Below, one piece after another: positions 38,923-49,783 of a stretch of 64,000 nt of DNA (position 1 is the stretch's first letter; the number at the start of each line of letters is the position of its first letter). The DNA lies in contig NZ_JQNA01000002.1 in the NCBI RefSeq assembly GCF_000745015.1, positions 5,270,001-5,334,000 on the forward strand, given 5' to 3'. Source of the DNA: Burkholderia sp. 9120. GTDB taxonomy: Bacteria; Pseudomonadota; Gammaproteobacteria; Burkholderiales; Burkholderiaceae. The position numbers were made by a program, and so were the translations under genes. Below the pieces are notes generated by a model. It was not told the DNA's origin. It searched no databases and worked only from the letters and a program-made list of their open reading frames with translations.

Positions 38923-39597
38923 TCAGCGTGCTTTACCGCGAGCGCTCTTACCGGCGCTCGCTGCGCGAGGCGCGTCTTTACCCGCGGGCAGGCCACCGTT
39001 CATCTGCTCCATCCACGACAACGCGTCGACGTAAGCGAGAAACTGCTTGAGATAGCCCGGCGACAACTCGCGCATCAGCGAAAGCGAACGATGCACCAGG
39101 CTGCTCGAATTGAGCGGTCCGGCGTTACCAGGCACTTGCTCCAACGACTGGCGTAGCTGTTTCTCGGTCCGAACCTTCGACCAGATTTCCCTGAAGTGAT
39201 CGAGCGCCGCCAGTTCCGGATACGACGCGGCGGTAGGCAGACCGTGGGCGACGACGCGTTGCTCGCCTTCCGTTGGCGCCTGACTGACGATGTGCCCGGT
39301 CAATTCGGCGAGCGCGCTTCGAGCGGGACGGTCAGCGGCCGCAGTGCCGCTTTCGGCTGATGAAGTTTCGGCCCGCTGTAAATCCGCGGCATAGGCTTCG
39401 ATCAACATCGCCAGCTTCGCGTCCAGGATACGCCGCGCCGCGCCATTATGATTAGCCGCGCGACGTGCCAGCGCGTCGATGAAATGGAAGCGGATCGGGT
39501 CGAAGCGACCGGCGTGGCACGCGCGCCATGCGTCGAGCGCGGCGCTTGCCTCGCTCACCGCGTTCACCACGCCGCTCCCCCCTTCTCGCTCACTCAC
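38923..39597 (-). CDS. DUF2894-type protein of the motor-like cluster
   Basis: A 224-residue soluble protein without signal peptide. Conserved-looking segments are LDAWRACHAGRFDPIRFHFIDALARRAA, and LAALDHFREIWSKVRTEKQLRQSLEQVPGNAGPLNSSSLVHRSLSLMRELSPGYLKQFLAYVDALSWMEQM (given in part). The tail is basic (KSARGKAR). I assign it to DUF2894 from its position and content. The GTG at 39597 is chosen: it overlaps the OmpA-like stop by 8 bp and has GGAAGG just upstream. ATG 39615 is an alternative. It is the last gene of the block. Confidence 0.66.
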   Translation of the reverse strand: MSEREGGSGVVNAVSEASAALDAWRACHAGRFDPIRFHFIDALARRAANHNGAARRILDAKLAMLIEAYAADLQRAETSSAESGTAAADRPARSALAELTGHIVSQAPTEGEQRVVAHGLPTAASYPELAALDHFREIWSKVRTEKQLRQSLEQVPGNAGPLNSSSLVHRSLSLMRELSPGYLKQFLAYVDALSWMEQMNGGLPAGKDAPRAASAGKSARGKAR

Positions 39598-40237
39598 GCG
39601 CCTTCCCCGCCGCATTCGCCGGCCCCGGCACCGGCGCGATTTCCACCCGCCGGTTCTTCGCCCGCCCCTGATCGTCCGCGTTCGAACCCACCGGCTGCTG
39701 CGAACCGAACGCCGCCGCGAAGACCGAAGCCGCCGGCACGCCGTCATCGATCAGTGCCCGCGTCACTGTCAGCGCGCGCTGCGCCGACAGTTCCCAGTTG
39801 TCCGCAAAGCGACGGTTCGCCTCGCGCACCTGCCGGTCGTCGGTAAAACCGCTCACCATCAGAATTTCGTCGCGGGCATGCAGATACGCCGTGAGCGGCC
39901 CGGCCAGGCTCTTCAACAACTCGCGGCCTTCGGGCTGCAACTGGTCGGAGTTCAGCGCGAACAACACATTGCCGCTAATGCCGATACGTCCGTTGACCAG
40001 TGTCACGCGGCCCGCCGCCAGCGGACCCGCGAGCGCCTGCTCGAGCGTCTTGCGGCGCTGCGTTTCCACCTGACGCTGCTTGACCTCCTGCTCCAGCTTG
40101 GTCGACAGTTCGAGTTGCACGCCGATGACGCCCACCAGGATCAGCACGAACGCGCCCAGCAGCACCGACATCAAATCGCCGAAAACCGGCCAGATCGGCG
40201 CGGTGGTCTCTACGCCGCCGTCGATTTCCTCGCTCAT
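39590..40237 (-). CDS. MotB/OmpA-like membrane protein of the motor-like cluster
   Basis: A 215-residue protein. A single N-terminal helix, IWPVFGDLMSVLLGAFVLILVGVIG, carries an acidic residue (D21) at the position of the ion-carrying Asp of MotB, ExbD, TolR and ZorB. A short coiled coil (about 43-75) leads to a C-terminal OmpA-type peptidoglycan-binding domain ending NWELSAQRALTVTRALIDDG and GRAKNRRVEIAP, with the canonical Arg. The start overlaps the tail-protein gene by 4 bp. It most likely forms the stator plug and cell-wall anchor with the upstream protein. Confidence 0.87.
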   Translation of the reverse strand: MSEEIDGGVETTAPIWPVFGDLMSVLLGAFVLILVGVIGVQLELSTKLEQEVKQRQVETQRRKTLEQALAGPLAAGRVTLVNGRIGISGNVLFALNSDQLQPEGRELLKSLAGPLTAYLHARDEILMVSGFTDDRQVREANRRFADNWELSAQRALTVTRALIDDGVPAASVFAAAFGSQQPVGSNADDQGRAKNRRVEIAPVPGPANAAGKARE

Positions 40238-42852
40238 GCGGCGTCAGCTCCGGCCGAAGCGCGCTGCCCGGCGAGGTGCTGCAGATCCTCGACGATCTGC
40301 TTCTGCGACATCACGCTCAGGTCGACAACTTCCCGCGCCTGCGCCACGTAATACGCCAACTGTTCGTCACTGCGTGCGAGCGACTTGTCGAGCGCGGCTT
40401 CGATCCGCTCCAGATGCGTGACCAGCTTGTCGTTCGATTCGCCGAACACCTGCACGGCGCTGCCGAACGCTTCGCCGAGGCTCGCCACTTCGACGGCGCT
40501 GCCGGTCACCTGCGCGGCGATCTCGCCGAGCTTGCCGGTTTCGAGTTCGACCTTGTCGGTGAAGCGCGTGCCCACCCGCTCCAGCAGATCCGCCGACGTC
40601 GCGACCAGCGCGTCGACGGCCGTACGCTGTTCGGTGGACGCGTGATTCACGGCATCGAGCAGCGTCTCCAGCGTTTCGAGCAAGCGCGCGCGCTCCTGCA
40701 ACATCGCGGTATCGCGGACCATGCTGTCGGACAGTTTCTGCCGCAATTCGGCGACGACTTCAGCCGCGGCCTTCGGCGCTTCCGACGCAGCCTGCACCAG
40801 TTGCCCGATCTCGGCGATCGTCTCGCTCGCGTACGCCTGCGTCTGAGCCGACATGTCGCGCGCGGTTTGCTCCAGCGTCGCACAGATTTCCTGCTGACGG
40901 GTCGCGGTACGCTCGCCGGCTTGCTCCCACTTCTCGCTCAATGCGACGGCCATCGAATCGAGTTTTCCGGTCCATGCGGCCAGCCGTTGTTCATCTTGCG
41001 CCGCCAGTTCTGTGCGCAGATTCGCGGCGGCTTTGGGGGCTTCCGCAGCGGCGTCCACGAGACGGCCGATTTCGGCGATCGTTGCGCTCGCATGCGTTTG
41101 CGTTTGCGCCGCGATATCGCGCGCGGTTTGTTCCAGCGTCGCGCAGATTTCCTGCTGACGGCTCGCGGTGCGTTCGCCGGTTTGCTCCCACTTCTCATTC
41201 AACGCAGTCGCCATCGAACCGAGTTGTTCAGTCCATGCGGCCAGCCGCTGTTCATCTTGTGCCGCCAGTTCCGCGCGCAGATTCGCAGCGGCTTTGGGAG
41301 CTTCCGCGGCGGCATCCACGAGACGGCCGATCTCGGCGATCGTTGCGCTCGCATGCGTTTGCGTTTGCGCCGCGATATCGCGCGCGGTTTGTTCCAGCGT
41401 CGTGCAGATTTGCTGCTGACGGCTCGCCGTGCGTTCGCCCGTCTGCTCCCACGTCTCGTTCAACGCAACGGCCATCGAGCCGAGTTGTTCGGTCCAGGCC
41501 GCCAGCCGCTGTTCGTCCCGCGCGCCCAGCGCCGTCTGCAGATTCGCGTGCGACTCGCCGACATTGGCGAGCAACGACACCGAATGCTGCTCGAAACTCG
41601 CCGCAGCGGCCGCCAACGCTTGCCGATTGTTGTCCGCGAGCGTCTCGCCGACACGCTCCTGCCGCGACAACGCGTCGTTCCACGCCTGCGACACGCCCTG
41701 CGCGGTGGCATCCAGCCGCGCGGACACGCCGTCGAGCAGACCGGCCGAGCGTTGCTCGAACGTTTCCGTGAAGCGATCTAGCGTTGCTCGCAGATGTTCC
41801 GTCTGTTCCTCGCTCGAACGCTGATGGCCAGCCAGCGCCTTGTTCCAGATATCGGCCACGTTCACGGCCGTCGTTTCAAAACCGCTCGACAACCCGTCCA
41901 GTTGCCGCTGCACGGCGTGCGAAACGCTATCGTGCAACGCGGTGGTTTCGCGCGCGAGACCGGCCATGGTTGCTTCCATCACCGGCTGCAACGCCGCGCC
42001 GGCCGCGCGCGTGCTGTCGGCAACACTCTCCTTCAACGATTGCTCGACAGACGCGGCCAGCCGCGTATAAGCAGCCTCGGCTTTGCCATGAAACGCCTCC
42101 TGACTGGCCACCTGGCGCTCGTTCAACGCGAGGCTCTGCTGTTCGATGGCCGACATCATCGACTGCAAGCGGTCGACCAGTGCGGGCATTACATCGGCTT
42201 GCCGTTGCAGCAGCCGGAAACTCTCGTCGCGCTGATGAGCCTGCGAATAGACGCGCAAGCTGGTCGCGATCTTCAGGTCGAGCGCTTGCGCCGCCTGCAA
42301 CCGCTCGCGACGGCACAGCGCGGCCAGCAGCCCGAGCATCGCGGAGGTGGACACGCCCGCGATCGACGTGCCGAATGCGAATCCCAGACCCTTGACCGGC
42401 GCGGCCAGCGAAGCGCGGATCGCTTGCAGATCGGTCGAGCTTTCCAGCGCCATGCCGGTGCCGCGCAAGGTCGCGACCATGCCGAGCAGCGTGCCGAGCA
42501 TGCCCAGCAACACCAGCAGGCCGACCAGATACGGTGCGAGCGCGGGGCCGGGCAAGGCGACTCGCTCACCTTCGACACGCAAACGCGCCGCGTTGCGCAA
42601 GCTCGGATGCAACGCGTCGAGCCAGCCGCCCAGACTCGACGGCGGTCCGGACAAGTCCGCGACGGCGCGCGTCAACGTGCCGGTCGCCTGGTTGTAACGA
42701 TGCAGTTCGAGCGAGCCCGCCAGATAGCACACGCCAATCAACAAGGTGACGGCCAGCGCCAGCGGGTTCGAGCCGAGGTAACCCACGGCGATCCAGCACA
42801 CGGCGGCCAGACCGGCCAGAAACACAACGAGGTCAATACGATATCTGGACAT
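40234..42852 (-). CDS. DUF802 protein: MotA/TolQ/ExbB-like channel with long coiled-coil tail
   Basis: An 872-residue protein. There are four hydrophobic segments (about 8-26, 31-48, 107-128, 153-180). The last two match the MotA/TolQ/ExbB channel signature: LLVLLGMLGTLLGMVATL, then SLAAPVKGLGFAFGTSIAGVSTSAMLGLL. Residues 190-872 are one long helical, Gln/Ala/Glu-rich cytoplasmic tail with methyl-accepting-protein-like heptads, including three 87-residue repeats. This matches the layout of ZorA (motor plus intracellular tail). It starts 10 bp after the DUF3348 gene and overlaps the MotB/OmpA-like gene. ATG 42852 begins the first helix. Confidence 0.84.
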   Translation of the reverse strand: MSRYRIDLVVFLAGLAAVCWIAVGYLGSNPLALAVTLLIGVCYLAGSLELHRYNQATGTLTRAVADLSGPPSSLGGWLDALHPSLRNAARLRVEGERVALPGPALAPYLVGLLVLLGMLGTLLGMVATLRGTGMALESSTDLQAIRASLAAPVKGLGFAFGTSIAGVSTSAMLGLLAALCRRERLQAAQALDLKIATSLRVYSQAHQRDESFRLLQRQADVMPALVDRLQSMMSAIEQQSLALNERQVASQEAFHGKAEAAYTRLAASVEQSLKESVADSTRAAGAALQPVMEATMAGLARETTALHDSVSHAVQRQLDGLSSGFETTAVNVADIWNKALAGHQRSSEEQTEHLRATLDRFTETFEQRSAGLLDGVSARLDATAQGVSQAWNDALSRQERVGETLADNNRQALAAAAASFEQHSVSLLANVGESHANLQTALGARDEQRLAAWTEQLGSMAVALNETWEQTGERTASRQQQICTTLEQTARDIAAQTQTHASATIAEIGRLVDAAAEAPKAAANLRAELAAQDEQRLAAWTEQLGSMATALNEKWEQTGERTASRQQEICATLEQTARDIAAQTQTHASATIAEIGRLVDAAAEAPKAAANLRTELAAQDEQRLAAWTGKLDSMAVALSEKWEQAGERTATRQQEICATLEQTARDMSAQTQAYASETIAEIGQLVQAASEAPKAAAEVVAELRQKLSDSMVRDTAMLQERARLLETLETLLDAVNHASTEQRTAVDALVATSADLLERVGTRFTDKVELETGKLGEIAAQVTGSAVEVASLGEAFGSAVQVFGESNDKLVTHLERIEAALDKSLARSDEQLAYYVAQAREVVDLSVMSQKQIVEDLQHLAGQRASAGADAA
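40744..41526 (-). repeat. Three tandem 261-bp repeats in the tail gene
   Basis: Units at 41266-41526, 41005-41265 and 40744-41004, each 87 codons with no gap. Each begins xARDEQRLAAW or AAQDEQRLAAW and ends near EAPKAAAxLRxEL. Units 1 and 2 differ at only a few residues, and unit 3 has diverged further. Unit length is fixed, as expected if it sets the length of a helical tail. Confidence 0.88.
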
Positions 42853-42862
42853 AGTGTCCCAG

Positions 42863-43654
42863 TTAGCTGGTGCGAAGAGCCGCGAGCAACCCTTCGACCG
42901 GTTGAAAACGAACGTCCAGTTCAGCAAGCAACACGCTCTGCATGTCCTTGCGGAACACGTCCAGCCATGCGCCGGGCGTTACCGCCGCGGCGTCGTCCGA
43001 GGCAACGGCGGCGGCCAGCGTCGCCTGCTCCGCCGCGCGCAGGCGCTCGAAGTGCCCGGCCAGCAGACCCGGCACGCTGCCCAGCAGATTCCGTTCGCGC
43101 TCGCTGAGCGCACGCTCCATGACGGCGTCCAGCACCGCGAGCCGCGCCATTGCGGGCGTTTTCGCGGCCAGCAGGCTGCGCAAGCGCACGCGTAACGGGC
43201 CGACTGCGGTTTCCATCGACTGCTGCAACGCCTGGTAGCGCTGCCGGAACACCGCGTAATCGGGCGCCGCGTCGGCCGGCGCGGGCTGTGACGACATGTG
43301 GGCGTGCGGGTTTGCGTGCGAGTTTGCGTACGGAAAGGCCTGCGTGTTGCCAAATCCGCGCCGCTTGCTCGCCACGAGCACGCTGTCGCCCGCCACGGAC
43401 TTCATCAGCGAAACGCGCACGCGCGCGCATTCGTCCTCTTCGGCGCGGCCGAACACCCGTGCACCGGCCGGCACGGCCGGCGGCGCGCCGTTCAGCGCCG
43501 ACGACAGCGCAATAGCGTCGGTCCAGCCGAGCCATTGGCTAAGCCGGTCCGAGAGCGATTGCCGGGATTCGGGGACATCGACATCCGCCAGACGAGCCAA
43601 CAGGCGAATGAGCGCCGGGCCGCTGAGAGCTGTGCGCTGGGGGGCTTGCAACAT
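42863..43654 (-). CDS. DUF3348-type protein of the motor-like cluster
   Basis: A 263-residue soluble protein, first gene of the block. Residues about 20-90 (LARLADVDVPESRQSLSDRLSQWLGWTDAIALSSAL and EEDECARVRVSLMKSV) and the helical C-terminal half (YAVFRQRYQALQQSMETAVGPLRVRLRSLLA, VTPGAWLDVFRKDMQSVLLAELDVRFQPVEGLLAAL) fit DUF3348, and I use that name. No catalytic motif is visible. A His/Asn/Ala stretch near 115-125 is low complexity. A role as cytoplasmic partner of the motor-like pair is inferred from fixed gene order only. Confidence 0.68.
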   Translation of the reverse strand: MLQAPQRTALSGPALIRLLARLADVDVPESRQSLSDRLSQWLGWTDAIALSSALNGAPPAVPAGARVFGRAEEDECARVRVSLMKSVAGDSVLVASKRRGFGNTQAFPYANSHANPHAHMSSQPAPADAAPDYAVFRQRYQALQQSMETAVGPLRVRLRSLLAAKTPAMARLAVLDAVMERALSERERNLLGSVPGLLAGHFERLRAAEQATLAAAVASDDAAAVTPGAWLDVFRKDMQSVLLAELDVRFQPVEGLLAALRTS

Positions 43655-47533: not shown

Positions 47534-49783
47534 ATGAAGTTGCGGTCCGACGAACCGAAGCTCGGGAAAATCAGCACGACACTGTGCGGCATGCTGGCCG
47601 CCGGCCCTGCTCTGGCGCAGGGCACCGCCGGCACGGCGCCGCCCGACAAGGAGAGTCAGCTTGCGCCGATCGCCGTGCAGGGTCAGACGGACCACGGCTT
47701 CAAGACCGATCGCTCAGCGTCGGACAAATTCACCGCACCGCTCGTCGACACGCCGAAGTCCGTGACCGTGATTCCGCAGGAGTTGATCAAGAGCACCGGC
47801 GCCGCGACGCTGACCGAAGCGCTGCGCACCGTGCCGGGCATCACCTTCGGCGCTGGCGAAGGCGGCAACCCGCTCGGCGACCGGCCGTTCATTCGCGGCT
47901 ACGACGCCCAGGGCAGCACGTTCATCGACGGCATGCGCGATGTCGGCGCGACCACCCACGAAGTGTTCAACATCGAAAGTGTCGAAGTCACCAAGGGTTC
48001 GGACGGCGCCTACGGCGGCCGTGGCGGCGCGGGCGGCAGCATCAACCTGATCACCAAGGCCCCGCACCTGGGCAATTCCGCCGACGGCAGTGCGGGTCTC
48101 GGCACCGACCGTTACCGCCGCTTCACCGCCGACGGCAACTGGCAAATGGCCGATCACGCGGCGTTCCGCCTGAACGTGATGAGCCACAACAACGACGTGC
48201 CAGGCCGCGACGCCGTCAACAACGAGCGCTGGGGCATCGCGCCGTCGTTCACCTACGGGCTCGGCACGCCGACCCGCGTCACCGCGAGCTACTACCACCT
48301 CGCCACCGACGACCTGCCGGACAGCGGCATTCCGTATTTCTACACGACCACCAACAAGCCGGCCAACGTCGGCACGATCTATCCGGCCAACGTGGACCGT
48401 CACAACTTCTACGGCCTGATCGACCGCGATTTCCGCAAGACGACTTCGGACATCGGCACGGTGCGTATTGAGCACGACATCAACAGCAATCTGACGATCC
48501 GCAACACCACGCGCTATACGAAGGCGACCCAGGACTACATCTGGACGCAGCCCGACGATAGCCAGGGCAACGTGCTGAACGGCATGGTGTGGCGCCGCGC
48601 GAACACGCGGGCGAGCGACGTCTACAGTCTCGCGAATCAGACCGAATTGTTCGGCGAGTTCAAGACGGGCTTCCTCAAGCACAGCTTCACCACCGGCCTC
48701 GAAGTGTCGCGCGAAACCAGCGTGAACGATTCGTACATGGTGGCCGCGGCGACCGGCGCGATCTGCAAGACCAGGGGCATTGGCGCGGCGGCGGGCTATA
48801 ACTGCACGAGCCTGTGGTCGCCGAATCCGAACGACCCGTGGGCCGGTTCCGTGCGTCAGACCAACGACCCGAGCGAACAGCGCACTGTCACCAAATCGGT
48901 GTACGCGTTCGACACGATCGAATTGACGAAGCGCTGGCAGGCGAACGTCGGCCTGCGCGTCGACGATTACTCGACCGATCTGCGTAACACGGTGGCCAAC
49001 GGCGGCAATCGCGTTTCGCGCGACGACACGCTGTTCAACTACCAGTTCGGTCTCGTCTTCAAACCGGCCTCGAACGGCAGCGTCTACGCGTCGATCGCGA
49101 CGTCGTCGACACCCGCCGGCGCCCTGCTCGGCCAGGGCAGCGAAACGCAGTCGTTGACGCCGGGCCGCGGCGGCGTAGGCGCAAACGCCGCCCAACTCGC
49201 GCCGGAAAAGAACCGCAGCATCGAACTCGGCACCAAGTGGAATGTGCTGGACAACAAGCTCTCGCTGACCGGCGCGCTGTTCCAGATCGACACGACCAAT
49301 GCGCGCGTCACGCTGCCGAACAACGAATACGCGATGGTGGGCAACAAGCGCGTGCAAGGTGTCGAATTCGGCGTGGCGGGTCAACTGACGAACAAGTGGC
49401 AAGTGTTCGGCGGCTACACGTACATGAAGAGCGAGTTGCGCGACAACGGCAAGACCACGTCGGACAACGGCCATCAGTTCCCCAATACGCCGAAGAACAG
49501 CATCAGTTTGTGGACCACCTACGACGTCTTGCCGAAGTTCACGATCGGCGGCGGCGCATTCTATATGTCGCAGGTTTACGGCGACACGGCGAACCTGCGC
49601 GCGGTGCCGTCTTACTGGCGCTTCGACGGCGTGGCGACGTACCGGATCAACAAGAAGGTCGATCTGCAACTGAACGTGCAGAACATCTTCAACCGGACGT
49701 ATTACGACCAGGCGTATCCGGCGCATTACGCGTCGATCGCCGCCGGGCGTTCGGCGTTCCTGACGCTCAACGCGCATTACTAG
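47534..49783 (+). CDS. TonB-dependent siderophore receptor (Fiu/PiuA type)
   Basis: A 749-residue outer-membrane receptor. The signal peptide ends ALA-Q (about residue 29). The plug domain has VDTPKSVTVIPQELIKSTGAATLTEALRTVPGITFGAGEGGNPLGDRPFIRGYDAQGSTFIDGMRD (given in part) and SVEVTKGSDGAYGGRGGAGGSINLITK. The beta barrel ends LTLNAHY with the usual terminal aromatic residue. The plug motif and the following Sel1 and PiuC genes fit catecholate-type receptors such as Fiu and PiuA. The start is ATG 47534. It is probably Fur-repressed. Confidence 0.93.
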   Translation: MKLRSDEPKLGKISTTLCGMLAAGPALAQGTAGTAPPDKESQLAPIAVQGQTDHGFKTDRSASDKFTAPLVDTPKSVTVIPQELIKSTGAATLTEALRTVPGITFGAGEGGNPLGDRPFIRGYDAQGSTFIDGMRDVGATTHEVFNIESVEVTKGSDGAYGGRGGAGGSINLITKAPHLGNSADGSAGLGTDRYRRFTADGNWQMADHAAFRLNVMSHNNDVPGRDAVNNERWGIAPSFTYGLGTPTRVTASYYHLATDDLPDSGIPYFYTTTNKPANVGTIYPANVDRHNFYGLIDRDFRKTTSDIGTVRIEHDINSNLTIRNTTRYTKATQDYIWTQPDDSQGNVLNGMVWRRANTRASDVYSLANQTELFGEFKTGFLKHSFTTGLEVSRETSVNDSYMVAAATGAICKTRGIGAAAGYNCTSLWSPNPNDPWAGSVRQTNDPSEQRTVTKSVYAFDTIELTKRWQANVGLRVDDYSTDLRNTVANGGNRVSRDDTLFNYQFGLVFKPASNGSVYASIATSSTPAGALLGQGSETQSLTPGRGGVGANAAQLAPEKNRSIELGTKWNVLDNKLSLTGALFQIDTTNARVTLPNNEYAMVGNKRVQGVEFGVAGQLTNKWQVFGGYTYMKSELRDNGKTTSDNGHQFPNTPKNSISLWTTYDVLPKFTIGGGAFYMSQVYGDTANLRAVPSYWRFDGVATYRINKKVDLQLNVQNIFNRTYYDQAYPAHYASIAAGRSAFLTLNAHY

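Follow-up and report, generated by a model that had tools for sequence, protein, structure and literature searches.

A 64,000-nucleotide stretch of the Burkholderia sp. 9120 genome (8.46 Mb in 2 contigs), referred to here as the window, contains a block of four genes on the minus strand (43654-38923), and the question raised by this locus is which kind of membrane machine it encodes and what that machine could do in the bacteria that carry it. Sequence comparison identifies the block as Zorya type III (ZorF-ZorA-ZorB-ZorG), a system that has already been described and catalogued. The additions made in this work are its co-occurrence and near-fixation in Paraburkholderia, a length series of ZorA based on internal repeats, and unit sizes that lie close to multiples of the helical turn; neither the near-fixation, nor the repeat forms of ZorA3, nor register-preserving length steps were found described in the open-access literature among the matches listed.

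Identification of the locus

The genes of the block and the main features of its two membrane proteins are the following, with coordinates of the window:

42863..43654, minus strand: zorF (naming of the published papers), DUF3348 protein, 263 aa; Pfam 2.6e-94, PADLOC 4.6e-108
40234..42852, minus strand: zorA3, MotA/TolQ/ExbB-like protein of 872 aa with a long helical tail; PADLOC ZorA3 (PDLC00650) E=0, 1564 bits
42148..42852, minus strand: conserved ZorA membrane core, residues 1-235; conservation in 138 proteins
39590..40237, minus strand: zorB3, protein of 215 aa with a single transmembrane stretch and an OmpA/MotB-like domain; OmpA Pfam 2.2e-18, PADLOC PDLC00651 1.6e-119
40175..40177, minus strand: codon of ZorB Asp21, the presumed ion-binding residue; invariant in 21 aligned ZorB
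38923..39567, minus strand: zorG (naming of the published papers), DUF2894 protein with GTG start, 214 aa; Pfam 2.5e-65, PADLOC 5.8e-83

A complete Zorya type III set was recognised by PADLOC, with best E values from 5.8e-83 to 0. The ZorA3 and ZorB3 matches bear out the ZorAB-like motor that an earlier note had read from the letters of this DNA, and the two unusual soluble partners that it had pointed out belong indeed to the DUF3348 and DUF2894 families. The genes had also been described as overlapping, which holds for zorA and zorB (4 nt) and fails at the other junctions, where zorF and zorA are separated by 10 nt and zorB and zorG by 22 nt. A longer in-frame reading frame is also present for the DUF2894 gene. 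No promoter-like site was found at the block, and sites resembling terminators were no more frequent than by chance. The closest named relative among the best 80 of 553 was Paraburkholderia bryophila, with a ZorB 99% identical, the window's own record being perhaps excluded. The names used in this report (DUF3348 as ZorF, DUF2894 as ZorG) are those of the papers; in PADLOC-DB v2 (PDLC00652-PDLC00658) DUF3348 is ZorG3 and DUF2894 is ZorF3, swapped with respect to the 2021 and 2025 Nat Commun papers.

The gene order ZorF-ZorA-ZorB-ZorG was kept in all 136 complete loci found among 140 examined, three of which have an early-ending ZorA frame; the lack of co-conservation that would have refuted the earlier note was therefore not seen. 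The 10-nt gap between zorF and zorA was present in 113 of these 136 loci and the 4-nt overlap of zorA and zorB in 125.

Zorya type III was defined in 2021, and in the relevant passages of PMC8565338 it consists of the same four proteins with the same domains, its gene content being identical to that of the block; near-fixation and a stepwise tail are absent from those passages. The same passages report that a Stenotrophomonas type III locus protects E. coli against phages in plaque and liquid-culture assays. The view that such a block has no described function is contradicted by this published protection; the locus of the window may also act in phage defence. Zorya types I and II likewise have a MotA/MotB-like core, a conserved ZorB aspartate and a long ZorA tail, and the passages of PMC11890865 that deal with them indicate that the ZorA tail, peptidoglycan binding by ZorB and ion flow all matter. 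They differ from the block in ZorC and ZorD (type I) and ZorE (type II), whose PADLOC models had no match among the four block proteins and eight nearby proteins; type I models gave weak matches only (ZorA1 7.4e-11, ZorB1 2.8e-17).

In the membrane core of ZorA, residues T121, G161, T162 and S163 show at least 97% conservation across 138 proteins; T121, T162 and S163 are candidates for a Ser/Thr ring that would face the ZorB aspartate. The transmembrane-like stretches end at about residue 181 and the tail beyond them has about 690 residues, close to the approximately 680 first estimated. A search of ZorA3 against the sequences of solved structures returned no ZorA, its two matches (E 0.36 and 1.3) being at chance level, a result that counts against the Zorya III reading. 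In ZorB, the peptidoglycan-binding OmpA domain and the aspartate noted at first reading were both recovered: Asp21 lies in FGDLMSVLLGAF and was found in 21 of 21 aligned proteins. Its ion-binding role is presumed from the corresponding D24/D21 of types I/II, as described in passages of PMC11890865.

Repeat units and length series of the ZorA tail

Two domains and three repeats were located in the tail of the window ZorA:

41734..41892, minus strand: first DUF802 domain of the ZorA tail (domain match)
41569..41727, minus strand: second DUF802 domain, 55 residues beyond the first (domain match)
41290..41550, minus strand: tandem unit 1, 87 residues/261 nt
41029..41289, minus strand: tandem unit 2, 87.7% nucleotide identity to unit 1
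40768..41028, minus strand: tandem unit 3, 82.4% nucleotide identity to unit 2

Both DUF802 copies (Pfam match 6.9e-32) lie within the tail, and the three 87-residue tandem units, which had been overlooked in the first reading of this DNA, make up residues 435-700. Across 23 repeat-free ZorA tails, the proline content of residues 230-650 is 0.5%.

Tail lengths were compared in a set formed by the best 80 of 553 relatives, a choice that skews this sample to close ones, and by 60 Paraburkholderia loci hand-chosen from 109 with long contigs favoured, the two sets overlapping. The 140 loci provided 136 complete ones and 124 distinct ZorA proteins, reduced to 121 after removing three interrupted frames (L048, L070 and L078) that stop 762-1092 nt before zorB; two of these three loci come from strains named P. 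tropica. The 121 distinct uninterrupted proteins ranged from 693 to 1229 aa, whereas in types I/II component size is well conserved inside each family, according to the corresponding passages of PMC11890865. Internal repeats were present in 91 proteins, and 30 lacked a clear repeat; 25 of these 30 were 697-702 aa long, the repeat-free form being of about 698 aa. Unit sizes varied by lineage, with 87 residues in 48 proteins, 51 in 13, 113 in 8, 29 in 6 and 131 in 5; units of 22, 69 and 102 appeared in 2 proteins each, and those of 55, 62, 76, 98 and 149 in one each.

When the excess of length over 698 was divided by the unit size, 30 of 41 distinct unit-length pairs were within 0.06 of an integer, compared with a mean of 4.8 over baselines 560-799. 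The best baselines obtained from the repeat-bearing ZorA alone were 699 (31/41) and 698 (30/41), which correspond to the usual repeat-free length. Excluding unit 87, 20 of 31 pairs fitted the baseline 698 (mean 3.5), and with the interrupted genes included the fit was 31 of 44 (mean 5.0). The ZorA lengths of two draft genomes named P. bannensis were 153 residues apart, that is, three units of 51. In Xanthomonadales, one Dyella locus (L080) encodes a ZorA of 784 aa whose unit has 87 residues, like that of Paraburkholderia, and three other Dyella loci (L061, L063 and L066) have the 697-698-aa form.

Helical register of the unit sizes

A unit that preserves the helix is expected to have a size equal to a whole number of turns. 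Unit sizes were scanned for periods between 3.40 and 3.80, and random sizes scanned likewise in 3000 simulations were used as the null. The 13 unit sizes, among which 29/87 and 51/102 are possibly non-independent pairs, gave a best period of 3.636 (cos 0.926, with P at 0.0003, the lowest value that 3000 simulations can give). The nine strict units that fit the base of 698, first hand-picked and later recovered identically by rule, gave 3.638 (cos 0.929, P 0.0003). In the robustness tests, for which the unit list was hand-typed with identity of at least 0.6, omitting any one of the nine strict units, or 29, 87 and 55 jointly, altered the phase score little. With 15 units, interrupted genes being kept, cos was 0.71 with P 0.0002-0.0007 and a phase-free P of 0.002; the ill-fitting units 20 and 103 both come from interrupted zorA genes, and the nine strict units plus 20 gave P 0.004-0.013.

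Hydrophobicity along the repeat-free tails shows a strong period of 3.665 overall, with local values of 3.72 next to the membrane, 3.61 between residues 440 and 530, and 3.55-3.59 at the distal end. This period and that of the unit sizes agree only roughly, since the nine strict units scored just about 0.43 at 3.61 or 3.667. The array-wide hydrophobic peaks are partly set by the repeat length and were excluded as independent evidence. We take the ZorA tail to be a long helical rod to which length is added at the point where its twist goes through the straight state, and the unit sizes suggest that this rod grows and shrinks by blocks that leave the helical register intact.

The stepwise lengths could also be neutral: units would be made and removed by unequal recombination, the phase would reflect only an earlier periodic pattern in the coding DNA, or some lengths would be distorted by collapsed short-read repeats, which may affect the ZorA lengths taken from draft assemblies. 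We consider this explanation somewhat unlikely. Recombination would be easy because adjacent units are so alike (82-88% DNA identity in the window and up to 100% across 40 residues elsewhere), and on the 60-genome tree the class of length switched 29 times or more. However, 26 of 38 ZorA proteins from hand-selected few-contig genomes (2-7 contigs) were within 1 residue of 698+87n, and units of different lineages share one phase. The variation is also localised, as ZorB hardly varies in length (5-95% range 215-221) and 86% of 109 insert points, three interrupted genes included, fall at residues 380-600, most of the inserts being around residues 435-475 of the 698-residue form.

The preferred reading is that the register would be maintained because a rod out of phase could neither pack nor transmit, rod length itself being tolerated or tuned. 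A helix rises 1.5 A per residue, so that each 87-residue unit would lengthen the rod by about 13 nm. Natural versions of this one motor rod span about 700 to 1,230 residues and differ by nearly whole turns, which offers a ready set of alleles with which to test how the Zorya tail transmits its signal and whether length sets its reach.

Distribution and inheritance of the block

ZorB3 was found in 109 of 117 Paraburkholderia genomes, with one match each. The DUF3348 and DUF2894 proteins were present in the same 109 genomes, and all three were absent from the same eight (G003, G034, G049, G061, G071, G076, G080 and G105), one of which is 84% complete and another is without an rpoB match. Six genomes had a second DUF3348 match, explained by broken contigs, by a model match split in two or by a weak hit under the cut-off, and a weak second match of DUF2894 appeared in two. 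In the same 117 genomes, rpoB was recovered in 113 and gyrB in 115, and hsdR, an ordinary defence gene, was over the cut-off in 28 (49 at E<=0.001). Five of the eight genomes lacking the block, including the 84% complete one, have 4.1-5.9 Mb and are small for the genus; some Paraburkholderia of 4.2-5.6 Mb do carry it.

At the family level 133 of 200 genomes and 11 of 25 genera were positive, and at least 13 negatives had less than 4 Mb (13 of the 20 among the negatives listed, 47 more existing). Only 16 of 300 genomes of the order had the block, and DUF3348 was detected in 8 of 321 genomes of the class; the block is therefore nearly fixed near home and patchy farther off. The type I ZorA model NF033914 was over its cut-off in 0/117 Paraburkholderia (16 at E<=0.001), and as it was also so in 0/321 genomes of the class, this result cannot show absence of type I.

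Near-fixation within a genus is unusual for a phage-defence locus, counts against the defence reading and raises the question of a second, housekeeping role for a defence system. The block of Burkholderiaceae could mainly be a housekeeping envelope motor for cell-wall sensing or maintenance, with phage protection as a by-product or restricted to the Stenotrophomonas locus in E. coli. This reading, which we judge unlikely, is favoured by the high genus count, set against that of hsdR, and by the family count. By contrast, the distribution outside the family is patchy, and even within Paraburkholderia the set is missing from the eight genomes mentioned, six of which could be placed on the rpoB tree and occupy four separate stretches of its leaf order.

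The inheritance of the block was analysed in 60 Paraburkholderia genomes by comparing trees of its four genes, as DNA or protein, with those of rpoB and gyrB, none of which is a clean species tree. The block DNA tree shared 25 of 57 splits with rpoB (shuffled labels, 2 at most) and path distances correlated at 0.78 (permutations, 0.16 at most); for the protein tree these values were 24 of 57 and 0.72. Conflict of supported block splits with supported rpoB splits affected 20 of 48 for DNA and 10 of 37 for protein, rising to 34 of 48 against gyrB and 32 of 48 against rpoB and gyrB joined. As a yardstick, gyrB shared 11 of 57 splits with rpoB, and 26 of 40 supported gyrB splits conflicted with it, so that disagreement between trees is no simple sign that Zorya was transferred; the block agrees with rpoB no less well than one housekeeping gene does, a point in favour of the housekeeping reading. 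The disagreement of gyrB and rpoB in these 60 genomes may come from recombination of a housekeeping gene or from saturation.

The flanking DNA of the 60 loci formed groups of 20, 10-11, 7 and 7, the remainder being in threes or fewer. Both trees recover three of the four large groups as clades, the window's group being the exception, and these several chromosomal contexts inside the genus speak against a housekeeping motor. The DUF3348 protein had matches in 27 of 72,556 plasmid records, of 366 kb to 3.5 Mb (7 predicted mobilizable and 20 not), and none in 50,697 phage records. The eight nearby proteins are two LysR regulators, TerC, a zinc ribbon protein, an NmrA-like protein, a porin, a P-type ATPase and one protein without Pfam match. 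None of these eight had a PADLOC match, and this, like the lack of matches in the phage records, fits a housekeeping role; the missing PADLOC matches are in addition a point against the Zorya III reading. Against it stand the published protection by one homologue (passages of PMC8565338) and a change, of a direction not given in the corresponding passage of PMC12584637, in the expression of the first gene or first two genes of Zorya III when B. cenocepacia is infected by phage. At 47714-49783 of the window, overlapping open reading frames lie on opposite strands, one of 687 aa on the minus strand (no Pfam match) and one of 749 aa on the plus strand.

Our tentative proposal, which is possible and short of probable, is that Zorya III of Burkholderiaceae is a near-core, mostly vertically inherited motor for innate immunity or envelope sensing, with a rod length that would be evolvable in whole turns and with ZorF and ZorG as helical adaptors that would replace an operon nuclease. 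If this is true, reach, torsional stiffness or a gating distance could be tuned without loss of register, and type III would be a Zorya with a variable ruler.

Proposed mode of action

It is likely that the block, as a Zorya III system, combines an ion motor with a pentameric rod that acts on ZorF and ZorG and whose length changes in register. Five ZorA subunits would surround two ZorB, with Asp21 of ZorB coupling ion flow to rotation while ZorB grips the peptidoglycan, and the five ZorA tails would bundle into one long cytoplasmic rod signalling to a soluble partner. MotAB, TolQR and ExbBD have a 5:2 motor plan. The block would share this plan, and its OmpA-like anchor is as in MotB, but the operon partners are others. 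A flagellar MotAB-, TolQR- or ExbBD-type motor instead of Zorya is very improbable: the OmpA domain resembles the MotB and MotD families, but the window ZorB reached only 88.2 bits with MotD (cut-off 283) and 82.6 with the MotB family PRK08944 (cut-off 259), the sole NCBIfam cut-off reached among the 25 listed of 41 matches was that of PRK09040, a 'hypothetical protein', and ZorA, with no Pfam MotA_ExbB match up to E=1, was recognised together with ZorB by the Zorya III models of PADLOC at the E values given above.

In the Zorya III reading, the soluble partners would be ZorF and ZorG, acting as helical adaptors or scaffolds on the rod; the published proposal, in the passages that treat them, is that both are regulators of ZorAB. 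The ZorF model is all-helical and confident (pLDDT 86.3, pTM 0.81), and that of ZorG is mostly to all helical and less confident (pLDDT 74.7, pTM 0.43). Structure searches with both models gave no convincing structural relative, no sequence relative was found among solved structures, and neither an enzyme nor a nuclease was recognisable in the predicted folds and searches. In one of 14 control genomes, that of Corynebacterium glutamicum, where DUF3348 was without match, the DUF2894 model scored over its cut-off.
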